64,000 nucleotides of DNA. It comes from Paraburkholderia acidisoli (GTDB lineage: Bacteria > Pseudomonadota > Gammaproteobacteria > Burkholderiales > Burkholderiaceae). Positions 43,920 to 53,924 of this stretch are shown here, in pieces. Under the pieces are notes generated by a model that had not been told where the DNA came from, made no database searches, and saw only the letters and a program-made list of their open reading frames with translations. The stretch covers positions 992,001 through 1,056,000 of the forward strand of contig NZ_CP046915.1 of assembly GCF_009789675.1 (NCBI RefSeq), written 5' to 3'. The translations under genes were made by a program, and so were the position numbers. Each line of letters starts with the position of its first letter. Position 1 is the first letter of the stretch.

Positions 43920-44250
43920 GCAAGTATAAGGCGGCGCGCTGCGCGTGCGGCCAGGCCGCCAATAAAACTTAAAGGAACCTTAAAGCGATTGGTCCGTCTT
44001 TTAAGGAAATAAATTATCAGATCATTACGAATTTCCAACGCGTTTATTCGAAGGTGGAAATGATTTGATTAAAAATGAGACTTAAATGAGTATTGCGAAT
44101 ACTTTAAATCGCTGTAAATTTTTCTCTGTCGTTTTAAAGCAGGCAATAAATCCCGTTTCAGAATTTATTTCTTACATTTGAAACATCAGATTTAAGTGGG
44201 TCCCGACTTAAGATCTAATTCACCACGCATATATCGGGACAGCGAATATG
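43920..44250. promoter_or_regulatory. A+T-rich control region before the polysaccharide operon
   Basis: This 330-bp stretch is markedly poorer in G+C than all around it. It contains the perfect palindrome AGTATTGCGAATACT (44089-44103), the inverted repeat TTAAGT/ACTTAA (44192-44211) and several TTTAAAG/CTTTAAA motifs. Such islands are typical binding sites for H-NS and for LysR or sigma-factor input. Together with 44251-44427 it forms the 540-bp gap between the LysR gene and the operon; apart from one small ORF I see no gene. Confidence 0.65.
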
Positions 44251-44349
44251 AAGAAAAAGATTCTGTCTGTACGGGGTCGTTCACTCCGCTTCGTCACGCT
44301 CGCGCCAGCGGGCGCGCCACGTCACGTCCTGGCGCCGCCCAGCGCCTGA
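44248..44349 (+). CDS. Possible 33-residue leader peptide
   Basis: ATG at 44248 opens MKKKILSVRGRSLRFVTLAP and ends at TGA 44347-44349. GGGACAG lies 7-13 bp before it. It is in the same frame as the next gene but separated by the stop and 78 bp. A basic start after an A+T-rich promoter suggests real translation, perhaps a leader controlling the operon, or an upstream-displaced signal peptide lost by mutation. I have no homology support. Confidence 0.25.
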   Translation: MKKKILSVRGRSLRFVTLAPAGAPRHVLAPPSA

Positions 44350-44427
44350 CGAAGCCATCCCAGCTTCGCGTTTTCACGCGACGAACCCAGGTTCGGCGCC
44401 GGTCCAACTCGTTTCGAGAGAACCAAC

Positions 44428-46857
44428 TTGCCTCTTCGCACGCCACGCCGCCGCCTGCCGCGCGCGGCAAAATCGCCCGTTCTGTCCACGCTTCTCGTTG
44501 CGCTCGCTCTCACGTCGGCGAGTGCGTTCCCGGCTGTCGCCCACGCGGCGTCAGCGGCTGCGGCCGCGCCCGCTTCTTCGTCCGTTGCGGACACCACCAG
44601 CGCAAGTCCGGCCGCGAGCGCGGCGGCCAATGCCGATAACGCCAGCGGCGCCAACGGCTTCGCGCAACTGAACCGCAGCGTGAGCGTCACGCGCACGGTC
44701 ACGCTGCGCGAACTCGGCCTGCTCTCGGCCGTCACGCTCACCGCGCCCGACACGCGCCGCGAGTTCTTCCTGCCCGTGCCCGCCGACGTGCCGATCCACA
44801 ACGCCACGCTGCAATTCGACGGCGGCTACGTGCGCGGCGACGGCGGCCGCACCACGCTGCTGGTGTCGCTCGACGGCTCGCCGGTGGCGGCGCGCGCGCT
44901 CGACAAGGCCGACGGCGGCGTGAATGTGAATCTCGGCGTGGACGGCGCGCCGCGTTCGGTCGGCTTCGTGCGCCTCGGGCTCGGTTACGCCTCGGTGATC
45001 AGCGACAACGTGTGTACCGATCAAACGGCGATCGGCAACGTGCTGCGCGTCGATCCCTCCACGCGCCTCAGCTACAACTTCGATCCCGCCGACGTGCGCG
45101 ACCTGCGCACCGCGTGGAGCGCGCTGCCGTACGCGCCCATGATGACGATCGCGGGCACGCACCTGAGCGAAGCGTCGCTCGACACCGCATGGCGCACCGA
45201 CGCGCTGCTGCAACGCGACGGCAAGCGCCCCGTGACCCAGGCGATGCCCGCCGTGGGCGCGACGGTCGATCTGCGCGACGTGAACGTGCCGGCTTCGCTG
45301 CGCGCGATTCCGGCCTTCAACGCGCTCGCCGCGGCCGCGAGCGGCGCGAACGCGGGCCACGCCACCGTCGCCGACGCGGCCGAACTTGGCGCGCTGCTCG
45401 CGCTCGCGCCGCGCAGCGCCTTCGGCCCCGACGTGCTGGTGGCCGACAACGCCCTGCGCACGACCTTCAACGGCGCGCTCGACGCGCTGCGCACCCAGGT
45501 GGCCGCGAGCGCGCCCGCCATGCTCGCGGCCTTCGACGCGTGGCGCACGGGCACCGCGAACCAGATCGCCGGGCCGCTCGCGGCCGGCGAGGCGCGCGTC
45601 GCGCATTACGGCGGCCGCGCGGTGATCGTGGTGGGCGACAACGCGGGCGCGGCCGTGCTCGCGCGCGTGTGGCGTCCTATCGACGTGGCGCAGCGCGTGG
45701 TCGTGCATCAGATCGCGCCGGGCGCGCACCTGCAGGGCAACGCGATCCTGCTCTCGGATCTCGGCGGCGAGCCGCGCAGCGTGGACGTGCACGACACGGC
45801 CTCGTGGGAAGCGAGCTTCGATCTCGCGGCCGCTTCGGGCCAGGGCAAGCTGCCCGACGAAGTCGTGCTCGACCTCGCCGCGTCGCCCACGCTGTCCAAC
45901 GGCGCGGCATCGGCCACGGTCTATTTCAACGACGTGATGATCGGCGCGAAGCTGCTGAACGTGGATGGCCGCCGCGAGCGCCTCACGCTCAAGGTGCCGC
46001 GCTATGCCCTCGCGCGCACCAACAATCTGCGCGTGACGTTCCGCCGGCAGCCCGACGCCGGTTGCCAGGCGCGCCAGTCGTACCCGGTGGCGGTGCTGCC
46101 GAGCAGCTATCTGAAGCTCGCGGACGGCACGCCGAGCGCCGACTTCGTGGGCATGGCGGCGCGCTTCGCGTCGGCGGCCACGGTGTATGTGCCGCACGCG
46201 TATCTCGACGACGCCGTGCACGCCATTCCGCGCCTCGCCACGCTTACGGGCGCGGCCGGCGTCGCGCCGCTGCCCGCGCGTTTCGAAGTGGTCGCCGCGG
46301 GCGCCACCGCGAAGCCGTCCGGCCCGTTCCTCGCCGCCGATGTCGCGCTCGCCGATGAAACCGATCCCGTGCAGTTCTCGGCCGATCACCTGAAGCTGCA
46401 ATCGCCGAAGGGCGACACGCTGATCGACGTCTCGGGGCTCTCGCGCCTCGGCGTGGTGAGCGTGGGCAAGTCGGGCGACGCGACCGGCATCGTCTATCGC
46501 TCGACCGGCAACGCGCCCGTGCTCACCGACAAGCTGCAACTGTCGCGCGGCAACGTGGCCGTGGTCGACGCGACCGGCGTGCTGCAACGCTTCGACACCG
46601 CGCACCCCGACGACCTCGCGGCCACCGGCGACGACAGCACGCAGTGGGTCACGCGGCATTGGGCGCGCTGGGGCATTCCGTTCGTGCTCGTGATCCTGCT
46701 GATCGTGCTGATCGTGGTGGCGCAGATCGCCCGCAAGCGCAAGAAGGCGCAGAGCAGCGAGGAACGCCGCGCGGCCGCGCAACAGCCGCCGCAATCGCCG
46801 CAATCGCCGTCGTCGTCGCAAACGTCGAACGATGGCACGCCGCGGGATCGCCAATGA
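44428..46857 (+). CDS. BcsB-like exopolysaccharide synthase subunit
   Basis: An 809-residue periplasmic protein anchored by one C-terminal helix (about 752-772) with a Lys/Ser/Gln-rich cytoplasmic tail. After a long signal peptide (hydrophobic near 24-40) comes a BcsB-like domain beginning TVTLRELGLLSAVTLTAPDTRREFFLPVP, then carbohydrate-binding-like beta domains and flavodoxin-like parts. BcsB partners the cellulose synthase BcsA and guides the glucan through the periplasm. No bcsA is present here; the next gene is an NfrB-type transferase. TTG at 44428, with GAGAG upstream, is the likely start. Its stop overlaps the next ATG (ATGA). Confidence 0.8.
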   Translation: MPLRTPRRRLPRAAKSPVLSTLLVALALTSASAFPAVAHAASAAAAAPASSSVADTTSASPAASAAANADNASGANGFAQLNRSVSVTRTVTLRELGLLSAVTLTAPDTRREFFLPVPADVPIHNATLQFDGGYVRGDGGRTTLLVSLDGSPVAARALDKADGGVNVNLGVDGAPRSVGFVRLGLGYASVISDNVCTDQTAIGNVLRVDPSTRLSYNFDPADVRDLRTAWSALPYAPMMTIAGTHLSEASLDTAWRTDALLQRDGKRPVTQAMPAVGATVDLRDVNVPASLRAIPAFNALAAAASGANAGHATVADAAELGALLALAPRSAFGPDVLVADNALRTTFNGALDALRTQVAASAPAMLAAFDAWRTGTANQIAGPLAAGEARVAHYGGRAVIVVGDNAGAAVLARVWRPIDVAQRVVVHQIAPGAHLQGNAILLSDLGGEPRSVDVHDTASWEASFDLAAASGQGKLPDEVVLDLAASPTLSNGAASATVYFNDVMIGAKLLNVDGRRERLTLKVPRYALARTNNLRVTFRRQPDAGCQARQSYPVAVLPSSYLKLADGTPSADFVGMAARFASAATVYVPHAYLDDAVHAIPRLATLTGAAGVAPLPARFEVVAAGATAKPSGPFLAADVALADETDPVQFSADHLKLQSPKGDTLIDVSGLSRLGVVSVGKSGDATGIVYRSTGNAPVLTDKLQLSRGNVAVVDATGVLQRFDTAHPDDLAATGDDSTQWVTRHWARWGIPFVLVILLIVLIVVAQIARKRKKAQSSEERRAAAQQPPQSPQSPSSSQTSNDGTPRDRQ

Positions 46858-49043
46858 CGATGACGCTCGCGACCCTGGGGTTCTATGGCCGCGTGATGCT
46901 GGCCGAGTACTACCAATGGCTCGAGCACGCCGCGTTCGTGGTCTCGGCGGCGATCCTGCTGTCGAGCCTCGACGATCTCTTCATCGACCTCTGGTACTGG
47001 ATACGCGAGGCCGTGCGTTTCTTCACGGTCAGGCGCCAGCACAAGCCGCTCACGGTCGCGCAGTTGCAGCAGCGCGCCGAGCAGCCGCTCGCGATCATGG
47101 TGCCCGCGTGGCACGAGCACGACGTGATCGCGGCGATGATCGAAGACCTCGTGCGCGTGCTCGATTACCGGTCCTACCGCGTGTTCGTCGGCACCTACCA
47201 GAACGATGCGGCGACGATCGCCGAAGTGGAGCGCATGCGGCATCGCTACAAGCATCTGCATCGCGTGGAAGTGCCGCACGACGGACCGACCTGTAAGGCC
47301 GACTGCCTCAACTGGATCATTCAGTCGATCTACCGCTACGAGTTCGAGTCGGGCACCGAGTTCGCGGGCATCATCATGCACGACAGCGAGGACGTGCTGC
47401 ATCCGCTCGAACTCAAGTTCTTCAACTATCTGCTGCCGCGCAAGGACATGATCCAGCTGCCGGTGGCGTCGCTGGAGCGCGAGTGGTGCGAGCTGGTGGC
47501 CGGCACCTACATGGACGAATTCGCCGAGTGGCACGCGAAGGATCTGGTGGTGCGCGAAAGCCTCGTGGGCACGGTGCCTTCGGCGGGCGTGGGCACGTGT
47601 TTCTCGCGCCGCGCGATGCTCGCATTGATGGCCGAAACCGACGCGCAGCCGTTCAACACCGAGAGCCTCACCGAGGACTACGACGTGGGCGAGCGCATCG
47701 GGCGCATGGGCATGCAGGCGATCTTCGCGCGCTTTCCCGTGCAGTTCGTCACGCGCCGCACCACGTGGTTCGGGCTCGGCAAGGAACGCGAAGTCACCAC
47801 GACCATGCCGCTGTGCGTGCGCGAGTATTTCCCGGATACCTTGCGCACCGCGTGGCGGCAACGCGCGCGCTGGACGCTCGGCATCGGCCTGCAAGGCTGG
47901 ACGCTCACGGGCTGGAGCGGCTCGCTCGCGAACCGCTATCTGCTGCTGCGCGACCGCAAGGGCATCGTGACGTCGTTCATCGGCATGGTGGGCTACCTGC
48001 TGGTGATCCAGTTCATGTTGTTCGCGCTCGCCTCGCTGGCGGGGCTCACGCCCGACCTGTTCCCCTCGCCGTTCATCGACTCCCCGTGGATGAGCGCCAT
48101 GCTCACCGCCAACTTCTGCGCGCTCACGCTGCGCGTGGTGCAGCGCGTGATCTTCACCACGCGGCTTTATGGCTGGGAACACGGCGTGCTGGCGGTGCCG
48201 CGGCTCGTTATCAGCAACTTCATCAACTTTCTCGCCGCGCTGCGGGCGTGGCGGCTTTTTCTCATTCATGTCGTGACCGGAAAACCGCTTTCGTGGGACA
48301 AGACGATGCACGACTTTCCGAGCGCGGGCGGCGTGCGCAGCACGCGTCAGACGCTCGGTGAACTGCTCGTGTCGTGGCAGGCGATCGAGCCGGAAACGCT
48401 CGAACGCGCGCTCAAGGAAGAACACGCTCGGCACGCGCCGCTCGGCCGCGTGCTGATGGCCAATGGCTGGCTCGACGAAGAAACGCTCGCGGAAGCCATT
48501 GCGTTTCAGAGCGACCTGCCGCGCGGCGAACTCGTGCCCGAGTGGCTCGACGATCCGGCCAATACCGTGCCGCTCGACGTGCTCGTGCGCTTGCGCACGC
48601 TGCAGCAGGGCGTCGATGAAAACGGCCACGCGCGTTTCATCGCCGCGAACCTGCTCGCCGATACCGCGCTCGACCAACTGCACGCGATCACGGGCCGCAT
48701 CATCACGCTCGCGATCGTGCGCGAGAGCGAAGTCGCGGCGGGCTTGCGCCTGAAGCGCGGCGTGGACGAAGCGCAGTTGCGCGAAGCCCTCGACGGCGAC
48801 GACGAAGAGGGCGGCGGCGAAGCCGTGACCGTGCGTGGCACGCCGCTGCTCGGCGATCTGCTGATCGAAATGGGACTGGTGTCGCGCGAGCGTTTCGAAG
48901 CGGCGATGAAGGCGTATCGCCCCGACCGCGACGGCCGGATCGGCGACTACATGGTGGCGCGCCACGTGATCTCGCGCGAGGCGCTCAAGAGCGCCGTGGC
49001 CGCGCAACAGCGCCTGCGCGAAGCGCAATCGGGAGGCCGATGA
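46854..49043 (+). CDS. nfrB: NfrB-type glycosyltransferase with C-terminal MshEN c-di-GMP module
   Basis: A 729-residue inner-membrane family-2 transferase. LAIMVPAWHEHDV (81-93), MHDSEDVLHPLEL, TEDYD near 271 and QRARW near 332 are the processive-synthase motifs, flanked by membrane helices at the N-terminus, 365-430 and 440-475. The C-terminal third starts with TLGELLVSWQAIEPETLERAL near 499, continues as a GspE N-terminal-type fold, and a second LLGDLLIEMGLVSRERFEAAM unit follows near 663. In E. coli NfrB this MshEN region binds c-di-GMP and switches on the N4-receptor glycan pathway. It overlaps both neighbours by 4 bp. Confidence 0.87.
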   Translation: MTMTLATLGFYGRVMLAEYYQWLEHAAFVVSAAILLSSLDDLFIDLWYWIREAVRFFTVRRQHKPLTVAQLQQRAEQPLAIMVPAWHEHDVIAAMIEDLVRVLDYRSYRVFVGTYQNDAATIAEVERMRHRYKHLHRVEVPHDGPTCKADCLNWIIQSIYRYEFESGTEFAGIIMHDSEDVLHPLELKFFNYLLPRKDMIQLPVASLEREWCELVAGTYMDEFAEWHAKDLVVRESLVGTVPSAGVGTCFSRRAMLALMAETDAQPFNTESLTEDYDVGERIGRMGMQAIFARFPVQFVTRRTTWFGLGKEREVTTTMPLCVREYFPDTLRTAWRQRARWTLGIGLQGWTLTGWSGSLANRYLLLRDRKGIVTSFIGMVGYLLVIQFMLFALASLAGLTPDLFPSPFIDSPWMSAMLTANFCALTLRVVQRVIFTTRLYGWEHGVLAVPRLVISNFINFLAALRAWRLFLIHVVTGKPLSWDKTMHDFPSAGGVRSTRQTLGELLVSWQAIEPETLERALKEEHARHAPLGRVLMANGWLDEETLAEAIAFQSDLPRGELVPEWLDDPANTVPLDVLVRLRTLQQGVDENGHARFIAANLLADTALDQLHAITGRIITLAIVRESEVAAGLRLKRGVDEAQLREALDGDDEEGGGEAVTVRGTPLLGDLLIEMGLVSRERFEAAMKAYRPDRDGRIGDYMVARHVISREALKSAVAAQQRLREAQSGGR

Positions 49044-51583
49044 AGCGCGCCATTCCGAAAGCCCTGCCTACGCCGCGCAGTGCGCCGTTCCTGTCGCCGC
49101 ATGCGCTGCCGCGCCATGCGGCCGTGGCCTCGCTGCTCGCGGCGCTGCTGGCGCTGCATGCGCCGCAGGCGCGCGCCGACCACGCCTTGCCGCTGCCGCT
49201 CGCCGGCGCGCCGTACCGCGTGGCGCGAGAGGCCTACGCGGCTTATGACGCGCACCGTTATGCCGATAGTGCCGCGCTCGCGAGCGAAGCCATACGCCAG
49301 CGGCCCGACGTGATCGAGCTGCGCATGCTGCTCGCGAACGCGCTGGCCGCCGACGGTCATCTCGACGCCGCCGAACGCAGCCTGAGCGACGCGATCGACA
49401 CGCTCGGCCCCGACCGCCAGTTGACCGCGCGGCGCGCGCAGATCGCCTCCGTGGCGGCGGGCGGCGGTGGCGCCACGGACGTGCCGGGACCGGCCGGCGT
49501 GGCCGCGCGCGCCGCCTACGACGCGTATTCGCACAAGGACTACGACGCGGCCATCGCCGAGGCGCGCCGCGCCATCGAACTCGCGCCCGAGGTCGAGCGC
49601 CTGCGCTATCTGCTGATCGACGCGCTCTACGCCGATCATCGCGACGAAGACGCCTGGGCCGCGATTCAGGACGCCGACGCGCAATTCGGCGCGCAGGACG
49701 CGTTGCGCACGCGCAGCGAATACGTGGGCGCGCGGCTCGCGCCGGTGGCGTCGAACGCGGCGTTTTCGGCGCGCGAGCACGGCGATCTCGCCACGGCGCA
49801 AACGCTCGCCGAAAAAGCCGTGGCGTACGCGCCCGATCGCGACGCGTATCGCCTGCAACTGCTCGACGTGCTGTTCGCGCGCGGCGACTACGCGGGCGCG
49901 GAGCAGGCGGCGAGCGATGCCATCGCGGCGAACCGCAACGACGTGATGGCGTGGACCTTGCGCGGCTACGCGCGGGCGGCGCAACACGAACCCGCAGCCG
50001 ACAGCGATTTCGCGCAGGTGCTGGCGTTGACCTCGGCGAATGATACGGATACCGAAGCAAGCAGCGACGCCACGAAACGCACCGCGCGCGACGACCGCGT
50101 GGCGCGCGTGATCGTGGCCGATGTGCGGCTCGCCGAACATCGGCCGCAAGACGCGCTCGACGTGCTCGCGCCGTTGCAGACGCAACAGGACGACACCGAC
50201 GCCGTGATCGCGCTGCGCCGCAAGCGCGCGCAGCGCATGCTCGCGGCGAACCCGGCAAACCCGGCGAACGAAATGCAGGCCACGGCCACCGCGCCGTTGA
50301 GCGCGCAAACGCAGCCGGTGTTCGATTGCCGCGCCGATCAATACGGCGCCTCCTGCGACCTCTACGCCGCCGATCCCGCGTTCGCCGACGTGCGCGGCGC
50401 GCGCGCGGCCACGGCGCGCGGCGATCATGCGGCCGCGGTGAAGGCGATGCGCGCGGCCGTGGCGGCCGTCCCCGACGACCCCACGCTGCAACTCGCGCTG
50501 ATCGACGCGCTGGTCGCGAACGGCAATACGCGCGCGGCTCGCGCGGCCGCGCGCGAAGCGTTGGCCTCGGGCGCGGCGGACGGCATGGCGCCGCTGCAAA
50601 CCGCGTATCTCGCGCAGCGTGCGGGCGACTCGCCGCGCGCGTACGCCGAGTTCGCGCGCGCCGACGCGCAGGGCCAGTTGCCGCCGGCGGCGGCGGGCGA
50701 CGCGGGGTATGCGGCGTTGCAGTCGCATCACAACGCGCAGGGCGCCACGTGGCTCGAACACGCGATCGACTATGGCACGCAGCCGCCCGCAGGCGTCGCG
50801 CCGATGACCGACGCGGCGCTCTCCGACGCGCGCCACGCGCATGCGGACGCCACGCGCAACTGGGGCTTCACGGCTTCGGTCAACTATCGCGGCGGCGGCA
50901 TCCAGAGCGGCCTCGCCAGCAACAACCCCACGCCGGGCCTCGAAAACAACTGGCAGGCGGGCACCGAAGCGTACTGGCGGCCGTTCGGCAGCCTCGGCGA
51001 GCGCATGTTCGAACTCTACGCGCGCGGCTACGAAAACTTCGGCGTGAAGGGCGACGCGCCCTCGGGCGTGCAGACGCTGCAAACGGCCATCGGTGCGCGC
51101 GTGAAGCCGTTCACCTCGACCAACGCGATTTTCGCGTTCGAGCGCATCTTGCCGATCGGCTCGGCGGTGCAGGGCGACTGGCTCGGGCGCGTGGCGTGGT
51201 CGGACGGTTTCGGCGACGACCTGCGCGGCGGCGCGCCGAGCTGGTGGACGGGCACGGTGTACGGCGAAGCGGGCCACTACATCCAGCATCCGTCCACCTA
51301 CGCCACGGCCAACGCGCGCATCGGGCGCACGTTCCGGCTCGACGCCATCAGCCCGAATCTCACGGTGTTCCCGCATCTGGTCGCGGGCGCCGACTACGAC
51401 TCGACCATCGATCACAGCGTGCCCGTAGGCATCGGCGCGGGCGTCTCCGCGCGCTGGTGGTTCCGCGGCGGCCCGTACGACGCGCCGCGTTCGTTCGTCG
51501 ACATGACCGTGCAATACCGTGTGCGCGTGGCAGGCGATTCGCGCGCGCGCGGCGTGTTTCTCGGCGCGACGTTCTCGTACTGA
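49040..51583 (+). CDS. nfrA: NfrA-like outer-membrane TPR protein
   Basis: An 847-residue exported protein. A signal peptide (core AAVASLLAALLALHAPQARA) is followed by many TPR-like helical pairs from about 60 to 600. The last 250 residues are beta-rich, beginning RNWGFTASVNYRGGGIQSG and ending FLGATFSY with the terminal aromatic of outer-membrane barrels. The layout is that of NfrA, the N4 phage adsorption protein and glycan exporter, and of PgaA/BcsC-type secretins. It should pass the polymer from the periplasm to the surface. ATGA overlap with nfrB makes translation coupled. Identity to E. coli NfrA is expected to be low. Confidence 0.8.
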   Translation: MKRAIPKALPTPRSAPFLSPHALPRHAAVASLLAALLALHAPQARADHALPLPLAGAPYRVAREAYAAYDAHRYADSAALASEAIRQRPDVIELRMLLANALAADGHLDAAERSLSDAIDTLGPDRQLTARRAQIASVAAGGGGATDVPGPAGVAARAAYDAYSHKDYDAAIAEARRAIELAPEVERLRYLLIDALYADHRDEDAWAAIQDADAQFGAQDALRTRSEYVGARLAPVASNAAFSAREHGDLATAQTLAEKAVAYAPDRDAYRLQLLDVLFARGDYAGAEQAASDAIAANRNDVMAWTLRGYARAAQHEPAADSDFAQVLALTSANDTDTEASSDATKRTARDDRVARVIVADVRLAEHRPQDALDVLAPLQTQQDDTDAVIALRRKRAQRMLAANPANPANEMQATATAPLSAQTQPVFDCRADQYGASCDLYAADPAFADVRGARAATARGDHAAAVKAMRAAVAAVPDDPTLQLALIDALVANGNTRAARAAAREALASGAADGMAPLQTAYLAQRAGDSPRAYAEFARADAQGQLPPAAAGDAGYAALQSHHNAQGATWLEHAIDYGTQPPAGVAPMTDAALSDARHAHADATRNWGFTASVNYRGGGIQSGLASNNPTPGLENNWQAGTEAYWRPFGSLGERMFELYARGYENFGVKGDAPSGVQTLQTAIGARVKPFTSTNAIFAFERILPIGSAVQGDWLGRVAWSDGFGDDLRGGAPSWWTGTVYGEAGHYIQHPSTYATANARIGRTFRLDAISPNLTVFPHLVAGADYDSTIDHSVPVGIGAGVSARWWFRGGPYDAPRSFVDMTVQYRVRVAGDSRARGVFLGATFSY

Positions 51584-51635
51584 ACGCGAATTCAGTACGA
51601 AGCCCGGCGCCGATCTCGCGAGAAGGAGCGAAACC

Positions 51636-52790
51636 ATGAAAGTCCTGACTCTGTTTGGCACGCGGCCCGAAGCGATCAAGATGGCGCCGCTCGTGGGCGC
51701 GCTCGCGCGCGAACGCGAGGTGCAGAACGTCGTCTGCGTGACGGGTCAGCATCGGCAGATGCTCGACACGGTGATGTCGCTGTTCGGCATCGAGGCGCAG
51801 CACGATCTCGACGTGATGATGCCGGGGCAAACGCTGAACGGCCTGTTCTCGCGCGCCGTCGCGCGCATCGACGAGGTGCTCGAAGCGGAGCGGCCCGACC
51901 TCGTGCTGGTGCACGGCGACACGAGCACGGCCTGCGCGGGCGCGCTCGCGGCGTTTCACCGGCGCATCGCGTTCGGGCACGTGGAAGCGGGCTTGCGTAC
52001 CGGCGATCTCGCGCGGCCGTTTCCCGAGGAAATGAACCGCCGGATCGTCGATATCGGGGCGAACTGGCTGTTCGCGCCCACCGAAACCTCGCGCGCGAAT
52101 CTCGTGAGTGAACGGGCGCCGGGGCGCATCGTCGTGACGGGCAACACCGTGATCGACGCGCTGGCGGCCCTGCAACCCAGGCTCGCCGACGACATGCCGC
52201 TCGCGCGCGCGGCGGCGGCGCGCTACCCGTGGCTCGATGCGTCGCGGCGATTGCTGCTGGTCACGGGCCACCGCCGCGAGAGTTTCGGCGACGGCTTCCG
52301 GCAGATTTGCGGGGCGCTCGCGGAACTCGCGGCGCGCGAAGACCTGCAGATCGTGTATCCCGTGCATCTGAACCCGGCCGTGCGCGATCTCGTGACGGCC
52401 GAACTCGCCGGGCTCGAGCGCGTGCATCTGATCGCGCCGCTCGACTACGTCGATTTCGTCTGGTTCATGCAGCGCGCGCACGTGATCCTCACCGACTCGG
52501 GCGGCGTGCAGGAAGAAGCGCCGTGGCTCGGCAAGCCGGTGCTGGTGATGCGCGACGTGACCGAGCGCCCCGAAGCCGTGGCGGCCGGCACGGTCGCGCT
52601 GGTGGGCGCGCATCGCGAACGCATCGTGGAAGGCGTGGCGCGCCTGCTCGACGACGATGCCGCGCACGCGGCGTTTGCGCGGCGCGTGAATCCGTACGGC
52701 GACGGTTTCGCCTCGCAACGGATCGTCGACGCGCTGCTCGGGCGCGAGGTGGAGGCGTTCGCGCCCATCGAGCTCGCGAGCGCGGCATAG
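51636..52790 (+). CDS. wecB: UDP-N-acetylglucosamine 2-epimerase (non-hydrolysing)
   Basis: A 384-residue cytoplasmic enzyme converting UDP-GlcNAc to UDP-ManNAc. Family marks are GTRPEAIK at 8-15, VHGDTSTACAGALAAF with the catalytic Asp, GHVEAGLRTGDLARPFPEE with the two Glu, and TGHRRESFGDG with the His near 213. AGAAGGAG precedes the ATG. It closes the BcsB-NfrB-NfrA set 52 bp after nfrA. A local copy implies that the polymer contains ManNAc or a derivative, as known for the E. coli NGR glycan that depends on WecB. Confidence 0.93.
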   Translation: MKVLTLFGTRPEAIKMAPLVGALAREREVQNVVCVTGQHRQMLDTVMSLFGIEAQHDLDVMMPGQTLNGLFSRAVARIDEVLEAERPDLVLVHGDTSTACAGALAAFHRRIAFGHVEAGLRTGDLARPFPEEMNRRIVDIGANWLFAPTETSRANLVSERAPGRIVVTGNTVIDALAALQPRLADDMPLARAAAARYPWLDASRRLLLVTGHRRESFGDGFRQICGALAELAAREDLQIVYPVHLNPAVRDLVTAELAGLERVHLIAPLDYVDFVWFMQRAHVILTDSGGVQEEAPWLGKPVLVMRDVTERPEAVAAGTVALVGAHRERIVEGVARLLDDDAAHAAFARRVNPYGDGFASQRIVDALLGREVEAFAPIELASAA

Positions 52791-52852
52791 CGCGGGCTCG
52801 ATGTATCGGCGTATCGATGTAGCGAGGGATCGGCGCGAGGCGGCTCGCGCGT

Positions 52853-52884
52853 GTTAGCGCGTTAGCGGTTTAGCGGTTTAGCGC
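52853..52884. repeat. Four 8-bp tandem repeats at a gene end
   Basis: GTTAGCGC, GTTAGCGG, TTTAGCGG and TTTAGCGC run head to tail and include the stop codon of the downstream minus-strand gene (TTA at 52878-52880 on this strand). Confidence 0.8.
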
Positions 52885-53924
52885 AACGCCGAGCGCCACG
52901 CGTCGCGCAGCGCGTGCGCGCCCGGCGCGTCGCCGATCACGTACGGATCGAGCGCGAACGCCACCACGCGTTGCGCGCCGTAATCGCGCGCGATCTTCCA
53001 CTGCGCCTGCACGCGCGCGTAGGTCGCGGCGCGCGCCGCGAAACCCGCGTTGCCGTTTTGCGGGGGCGCCCCGTGCGGCGCGACGTTCTCGAATAGCTCG
53101 ACGATCAGATCGAACGGCACGCCTTGCGCGACGAACAGGTCGTGCAGCGGCTGCAAGGCCGTGTAAGCGCCGAGGCCTTCGGCGCCCGCGCCGTCCTGGA
53201 TCATCGGATGCACGTCGGCGTGCGCGAGCAGCGTGCGCCAGAGGCCGTCGAGCGTGGCGTTCGCATGCGGCGCGGCGAGCCGGCTGTGATAGGTGGAGAG
53301 CGTGGGCGCGCGCGTGCTGGTGGCCTTCGCGACCTCGGCGAGCGTATGCAGCCAGGTGGCGAGACGCTGCGCGCGCGCGGCATCGGCCCAGGAATATTGC
53401 TCGATCTCATACGGCACGTACCACCCGCCGAACGCGCGATGACGCGGCCACGCCGCCGCGCGCATCCAGGCGGTCGCGCGCGCGGCCGTGCTCGCGAGAA
53501 AGGCGTCGAGCGCGTTCACGTCCGCCGCGCCGATCACCTGCCACCAGCGGTCGTCGTAGGGCAGCCCCAGATGCACGGTGATGCCGAGTTGCGCGCAGTC
53601 GTCGAGCAGACCTTGCAGCAGCGTGTCGGACGCCGCCCAGTCGTGGTTCTCGCTGCTGTTCTGCGTGTCGATGGCCACCCATTGCACGAAGATCGTCGTG
53701 CAGCCGAACTTGCGCGTGGCCGCGAGGCGGCTTTGCCATTGCTCGCGCGACCAGTCCAGATGCTCGCGCCACAGCTGCACGAACGTGCCCGCGAGCGCGA
53801 CGGGCGACTCGCACGCCGCGAGCGGCAGGCAGGCGGCGAGCGCGGCGGCTTGCAGCAGGCGGCGGCGGGCGGGCGAGGTGGGCGCGGAGGGCACCAGGCG
53901 GGAATGGGCGCGCGTAAAAGGCAT
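52878..53924 (-). CDS. Putative secreted glycan hydrolase (DUF4434-like)
   Basis: A 348-residue exported protein. It has a twin-arginine-like RRRLLQ start, a hydrophobic core and the lipobox LAAC, so it is probably a lipoprotein. The mature part looks like a TIM barrel: TRKFGCTTIFVQWVAIDTQNSS, GLPYDDRWWQV, GGWYVPYEIEQYSW and the C-terminal VVAFALDPYV. This resembles DUF4434 proteins, predicted glycoside hydrolases; the E. coli protein YbcH beside nfrA is, as I recall, of this type. It is convergent with wecB. Its likely role is trimming or clearing the polymer made by the neighbouring genes. Part of this is inference. Confidence 0.7.
   Translation of the reverse strand: MPFTRAHSRLVPSAPTSPARRRLLQAAALAACLPLAACESPVALAGTFVQLWREHLDWSREQWQSRLAATRKFGCTTIFVQWVAIDTQNSSENHDWAASDTLLQGLLDDCAQLGITVHLGLPYDDRWWQVIGAADVNALDAFLASTAARATAWMRAAAWPRHRAFGGWYVPYEIEQYSWADAARAQRLATWLHTLAEVAKATSTRAPTLSTYHSRLAAPHANATLDGLWRTLLAHADVHPMIQDGAGAEGLGAYTALQPLHDLFVAQGVPFDLIVELFENVAPHGAPPQNGNAGFAARAATYARVQAQWKIARDYGAQRVVAFALDPYVIGDAPGAHALRDAWRSALR

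Follow-up and report, generated by a model that had tools for sequence, protein, structure and literature searches.

A probable exopolysaccharide locus of the NGR/PGR kind with a BcsB-like subunit in Paraburkholderia acidisoli

In the genome of Paraburkholderia acidisoli (7.95 Mb in five contigs), the genes nfrB, nfrA and wecB, which in Escherichia coli serve the c-di-GMP-controlled NGR exopolysaccharide system, are preceded by a gene for a protein resembling BcsB, a subunit of cellulose synthase. This raises the question of whether the locus is a hybrid of the Bcs and NGR designs, as the initial annotation proposed, or belongs to a family of loci in which such a subunit has a regular place. 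The window analysed here is a stretch of 64,000 nucleotides (positions 992,001–1,056,000 of contig 3), and the coordinates given below are counted within it. We found that the locus is complete and of a known type, whose subunit composition has already been published, and that a BcsB-like subunit is the norm in this branch of NfrB proteins.

Gene content and the NfrB synthase

The first gene of the locus, bcsB-like (44428..46857, plus strand), starts with TTG and encodes a protein of 809 aa with a signal-peptide-like N-terminus, a BcsB fold and a presumed C-terminal membrane helix (residues 737–785). On the same strand it is followed by nfrB (46854..49043; ATG start, 729 aa), coding for a GT2 synthase with a C-terminal MshEN module, nfrA (49040..51583; ATG start, 847 aa), whose product combines TPR repeats with an NfrA_C domain and is the presumed outer-membrane exporter, and wecB (51636..52790; 384 aa), coding for a non-hydrolysing UDP-GlcNAc 2-epimerase. 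The start of wecB was taken at the ATG at 51636, the listed open reading frame beginning at 51519. ATGA overlaps join bcsB-like to nfrB (46854–46857) and nfrB to nfrA (49040–49043), and a gap of 52 bp separates nfrA from wecB. A DUF4434 gene on the minus strand (52878..53924; 348 aa), coding for a putative glycoside hydrolase of the YbcH family with a lipoprotein-like N-terminus (LAAC, by eye), converges on the other four. All five genes are open and of full length, each of their products scores above at least one curated profile cut-off, and a check of the open reading frames confirmed the five genes, their strands, the convergent orientation and both overlaps as first annotated.

The profile matches bear out the NGR-type reading (NfrA–NfrB–WecB). 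NfrA matches NfrA_C (PF13283) with 168.5 bits (cut-off 25; residues 673–842) and TPR_19 with 54.7 bits, and WecB, whose identity is also reflected in the WecB trees, matches TIGR00236 with 450.9 bits (cut-off 210.15). NfrB reaches 1022.9 bits against NF012033 (cut-off 537) and is filed there and not as E. coli-type NfrB, because its score against the E. coli NfrB equivalog NF008411 (643.9 bits) is below the cut-off of 1170. The presence of an MshEN module in NfrB, claimed at the outset, was upheld by the c-di-GMP motif profile NF053729 (86.9 bits, cut-off 38, in two stretches) and by a fold match of the C-terminal part of the NfrB model to MshE/PilF domains, although the Pfam MshEN profile stayed below its cut-off (14.7 versus 23.1 bits) and the quality of the structure model is moderate (pTM 0.53). 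The first MshEN motif (residues 497–552; 48342..48509, plus strand) was located by profile and alignment, the second, LG-type motif near the C-terminus (residues 664–718; 48843..49007, plus strand) by alignment.

In an alignment of 103 NfrB rows the glycosyltransferase motifs are invariant, and nearly all rows retain the LG in the first half of MshEN. Residue 500, just before this LG, is Arg in 64 of the 103 rows and Thr in the window, as it is in the closest kin (L002–L006); E. coli NfrB, which binds c-di-GMP and requires WecB according to two papers (PMC8669472, PMC8669469), has Pro at this position. The c-di-GMP affinity of the window's NfrB may thus differ, given Thr500. Two other genomes of the genus (G019 and G095) carry an NfrB gene with one in-frame TGA, its product being 41% identical to that of the window.

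The leader of bcsB-like (44200–44427) is AT-rich and contains an upstream open reading frame of 33 codons (44248–44349); the stretch directly 5' of the TTG start is similar to those of L002–L004. Rfam searches of the window and of this leader returned no match, a tRNA search of the window found none, promoter- and terminator-like sites were no more frequent than expected by chance, and phage records searched for relatives of NfrA yielded none.

The BcsB-like subunit and the branches of NfrB

The BcsB-like protein scores 51.3 bits against the BcsB family profile PF03170 (cut-off 21), and structure comparison of its model recovered the BcsB fold that the initial annotation had predicted, with about 12% of residues identical to E. 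coli BcsB where the two structures align. Its score against the equivalog of cellulose BcsB, NF008324, is only 17.5 bits (cut-off 972), and a PF03170 search found no other BcsB-family gene in the genome.

A scan of genome contigs with NfrB yielded 313 relatives, of which the best 80 (55–85% identity) were retained, so that the sample leans towards close kin; the closest by both NfrB and BcsB are Paraburkholderia. Profile searches of six-frame translations of these best 80 of 313 loci found a BcsB-like gene in all 80, NfrA in 77, WecB in 67, YbcH-like proteins in 69 and acetylation genes of the AlgX type in 25; the figures for BcsB, NfrA and WecB argue that the gene set is not assembled by chance. 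Among the 13 loci lacking WecB, four (L023, L034, L055 and L073) include less than 2.2 kb upstream, too little for a verdict, and tblastn detected a WecB piece of 39 residues in L008. Gene order in relatives, a check named in the initial annotation, agreed only in part. In these best 80 of 313 loci bcsB lies directly upstream of nfrB throughout (79 by the coordinate rule and L031 by tblastn), whereas WecB is encoded upstream of nfrB in all 67 loci that have it, the usual order being wecB–bcsB–nfrB–nfrA–(YbcH-like), and none of the 80 has wecB downstream as in the window. In L113 (3749–5988), L121 and L064 the BcsB-like match spans two successive open frames, pointing to a split gene or a frameshift; in L113 the two frames are overlapping annotated genes.

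These data bear on whether the BcsB-like subunit marks a glucan locus, with WecB serving another pathway. A cellulose-type synthase would agree with the BcsB fold and with the best PDB match of NfrB, the cellulose synthase 5ej1_A (E 3e-8); against it, NfrB falls into NfrB families and not with BcsA, Pfam reports no PilZ domain, WecB accompanies the set in most of the best 80 of 313 loci, and the BcsB-like protein lies far under the cellulose BcsB cut-off, so that we consider this explanation most improbable. A hybrid between Bcs and NGR is also doubtful, since the genome has no second PF03170 gene, the score is far from that of cellulose BcsB, and the subunit is a regular partner of this NfrB branch.

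Beyond the closest kin, the order wecB–bcsB–nfrB–nfrA recurs in Nitratireductor, Variovorax, P. dioscoreae (where a YbcH-like gene stands between nfrB and nfrA, as in 7 of the best 80 of 313 loci, the gene usually following nfrA) and a Pseudomonas plasmid. In an E. coli record, Zymomonas, Thalassospira and Pseudoalteromonas, nfrB occurs together with NfrA-type and DUF4434 genes and without BcsB, and B. pyrrocinia has nfrB–nfrA–wecB without BcsB. Among 26 plasmid records with NfrB (10 from Escherichia and 6 from Zymomonas), a BcsB-like protein is found on all six with an NfrB of at least 53% identity and on none of the 20 below 49% (E up to 1e-10). Complete NGR-type loci occur on plasmids smaller than 100 kb, namely P. 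dioscoreae pII (L120), a 98-kb Pseudomonas plasmid (L134) and a 30-kb Zymomonas plasmid (L118), and in L120 a tyrosine recombinase gene lies about 1 kb from the locus, which indicates that the locus can travel. DUF2334 genes, which we take to code for deacetylase-like proteins and thus possible polymer-modifying enzymes, lie near two NfrB loci without BcsB (L105:3676-5319 and L122:10061-12064).

In a tree of 43 NfrB proteins, BcsB appeared at first to mark exactly one clade (31 rows with and 12 without, SH-aLRT 99). This view was dropped because L126 matches PF03170 with 140 bits, which places the BcsB rows in two parts of the tree and calls for two changes instead of one. BcsB is thus present in two distinct branches of NfrB, and none was detected in the E. 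coli-type branch that separates the two; its absence in the remaining rows was scored by tblastn, a window-type BcsB profile and in some cases annotation, which a very divergent BcsB could escape, and L125, cut off by the end of its contig, allows no call. On this unrooted tree, two gains of BcsB and losses in between are indistinguishable.

The YbcH family and the ancestry of wecB

The product of the DUF4434 gene scores 171.6 bits against PF14488 (cut-off 30) and 70.2 bits against the equivalog NF007404, under its cut-off of 344. Profile comparisons (E 1.5e-11 to 4.5e-22) and alignment place this protein, E. coli YbcH and the divergent YbcH-like neighbours of NfrB in one family; accordingly aligned, 52 sequences (that of the window, 5 DUF4434, 4 YbcH-type and 42 YbcH-like) share Q50, W63, Q81, W82, G120, Y169, E173, S210, QDG 243–245, G247, E276 and F278 without exception. 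On these grounds the DUF4434 protein is assigned to the YbcH family, whose E. coli member is encoded third in the nfrBA-ybcH operon. The two glutamates invariant in all 52 sequences (Glu173 and Glu276) suggest a putative retaining glycosidase; a sequence search found no relative of the family among solved structures. The idea that BcsB replaces YbcH was ruled out: tblastn with the window's DUF4434 protein gave no match in the best 80 of 313 loci, and a profile search likewise found no DUF4434 of the window's type there, but YbcH-like proteins were detected by profile in 69 of them.

Within the genus, 13 of 117 genomes have PF14488 matches at E up to 0.001 (6 of them over the cut-off), and all 13 encode NfrB, compared with 52 of 117 overall (P 1e-5). 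In 12 of the 13 the gene lies within about 10 kb of that for NfrB, and in G087 it follows wecB.

The history of wecB and the DUF4434 gene appears to differ from that of the bcsB–nfrB–nfrA core. In the NfrB tree the window is nearest to L002 (86%), a locus without wecB, whereas its WecB joins those of L100 (G090) and L114 (Variovorax) with support of 99/99. Constraining it to group with L127/L128 (G087 and G014; lnL 120.6 lower, p-AU 5e-84), L005/L006 (90.4 lower, p-AU 1e-66) or L098/L099 (99.0 lower, p-AU 3e-5) was rejected, these groups having been picked after a first quick tree. The DUF4434 protein shares 68% identity with its counterparts close to the second NGR locus in G058 and G080 (L098 and L099), 50% with that of G090 and 42–44% with those of L114 and L121. 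Joint arrival of the two genes is not supported, since the nearest kin of WecB and of the DUF4434 protein differ, and the comparisons support a mosaic locus. Two loci without BcsB share the nfrA–wecB order followed by a convergent gene, L105 (YbcH-like) and B. pyrrocinia L115 (not DUF4434); they were ruled out as the source of the 3' half of the window's locus, as their WecB proteins belong to another clade.

The loci L098, L099 and L100 (in G058, G080 and G090) and L114 represent a second NGR subtype with BcsB, a convergent DUF4434 gene in all four and NfrB proteins that are short (562–615 aa as open frames) and stop after the first MshEN motif; L098–L100 also carry AlgF/AlgX/MBOAT-type acetylation genes.

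Such a mosaic could also reflect a reshuffled, possibly non-functional locus, in which the core came to lie beside wecB and the DUF4434 gene by accident and these serve, for example, LPS. In keeping with this, no wecB lies within about 10 kb of the three nearest loci (L002–L004). In G014 and G087, which carry L003 and L004 and are the two of these genomes that were searched, wecB is paired with a YbcH-like gene on another contig than bcsB–nfrB–nfrA, and the WecB proteins of these pairs do not group with that of the window. The differing kin of WecB and the DUF4434 protein point the same way, as does the one second wecB in the P. acidisoli genome (57% identical), where a search for a YbcH-like gene such as those of the relatives found none. 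However, the window's WecB nests among those of BcsB-type NGR loci, the closest relatives of its DUF4434 protein lie near an NGR locus, and all five genes are intact, so that we regard accidental reshuffling as unlikely.

A more speculative reading, which we hold to be possible but doubtful, is that BcsB is an old NfrB subunit lost in the E. coli-type branch, not a late borrowing from cellulose synthesis, and that the YbcH family is a dedicated NGR glycosidase that stayed with WecB and NfrB when the locus was split or reassembled. If so, the window would hold a natural swap, an NGR core equipped with genes for epimerase and hydrolase from a different NGR subtype.

The proposed machine and its known counterparts

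We consider it highly probable that the locus encodes a synthase-dependent, c-di-GMP-controlled exopolysaccharide system of the NGR/PGR kind. This model is supported by the domains, the BcsB, GT2 and MshEN folds, the invariant glycosyltransferase motifs, the kept LG, the conserved gene set and the published parallels; the Pfam MshEN and NF008411 scores, Thr500, the pTM of the NfrB model and the odd position of wecB count against it. WecB would supply UDP-ManNAc, which NfrB, with c-di-GMP bound to MshEN, would polymerise, translocating the product through the inner membrane. Fixed next to NfrB by its C-terminal helix, the BcsB-like protein would receive the chain in the periplasm as BcsB does with cellulose, NfrA would let it pass through the outer membrane, and the YbcH-family protein may be a glycosidase that trims or edits it. 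Such a system would probably yield a ManNAc-type glycan that stays bound to the cell and may double as a phage receptor.

The phage-receptor glycan pathway of E. coli and Acinetobacter baumannii would thereby extend to Paraburkholderia and its kin, where the form with BcsB is apparently common. Two questions become testable, namely the role of BcsB for an NfrB synthase and the degradation of the polymer by the little-noticed YbcH family, and soil Paraburkholderia offer a convenient place for learning the identity of the sugar. New in detail are the mosaic locus, the single YbcH/DUF4434 family with two invariant glutamates, and the occurrence of BcsB in two NfrB branches.

The machine layout and the BcsB fold are shared with cellulose synthase (BcsA–BcsB–BcsC–BcsZ), BcsZ presumably being the analogue of the YbcH-family protein. 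BcsA senses c-di-GMP by PilZ; the window's system would do so by MshEN, and it includes WecB. The E. coli NGR system (nfrBA-ybcH and wecB) has an NfrB with MshEN, NfrA, a YbcH-family protein and UDP-ManNAc supplied by WecB (PMC8669472 and PMC8669469); it differs in that no BcsB stands beside nfrB, wecB lies in the ECA operon and NfrB is 38% identical to that of the window. The position of WecB beside nfrB has been described as well (PMC8669469). The combination as a whole, which the initial annotation took to be undescribed, is in print for Achromobacter xylosoxidans, where nfrA, nfrB and wecB homologs cluster with one of BcsB and with O-acetyltransferase homologs that are missing from the window (Sellner et al., 2021; PMC8669472), and, with mutants, for A. 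baumannii (PMC12507263); a literature search, with most subscription papers outside its scope, found no further account of the BcsB–NfrB pair. In the A. baumannii PGR locus (pgrA–pgrG), PgrD is the BcsB homolog, PgrC is NfrB-like, PgrF is WecB and PgrG an outer-membrane porin, the proposed glycan contains ManNAc, and PgrE, which resembles the C-terminus of PgaB, may in our inference correspond to the YbcH family; the locus differs in having a degenerate diguanylate-cyclase-like PgrA (PMC12507263). According to the same 2025 report, insertion in or deletion of pgrD confers resistance to phage StAb3, and the deletion abolishes adsorption of the phage, while complementation restores susceptibility.
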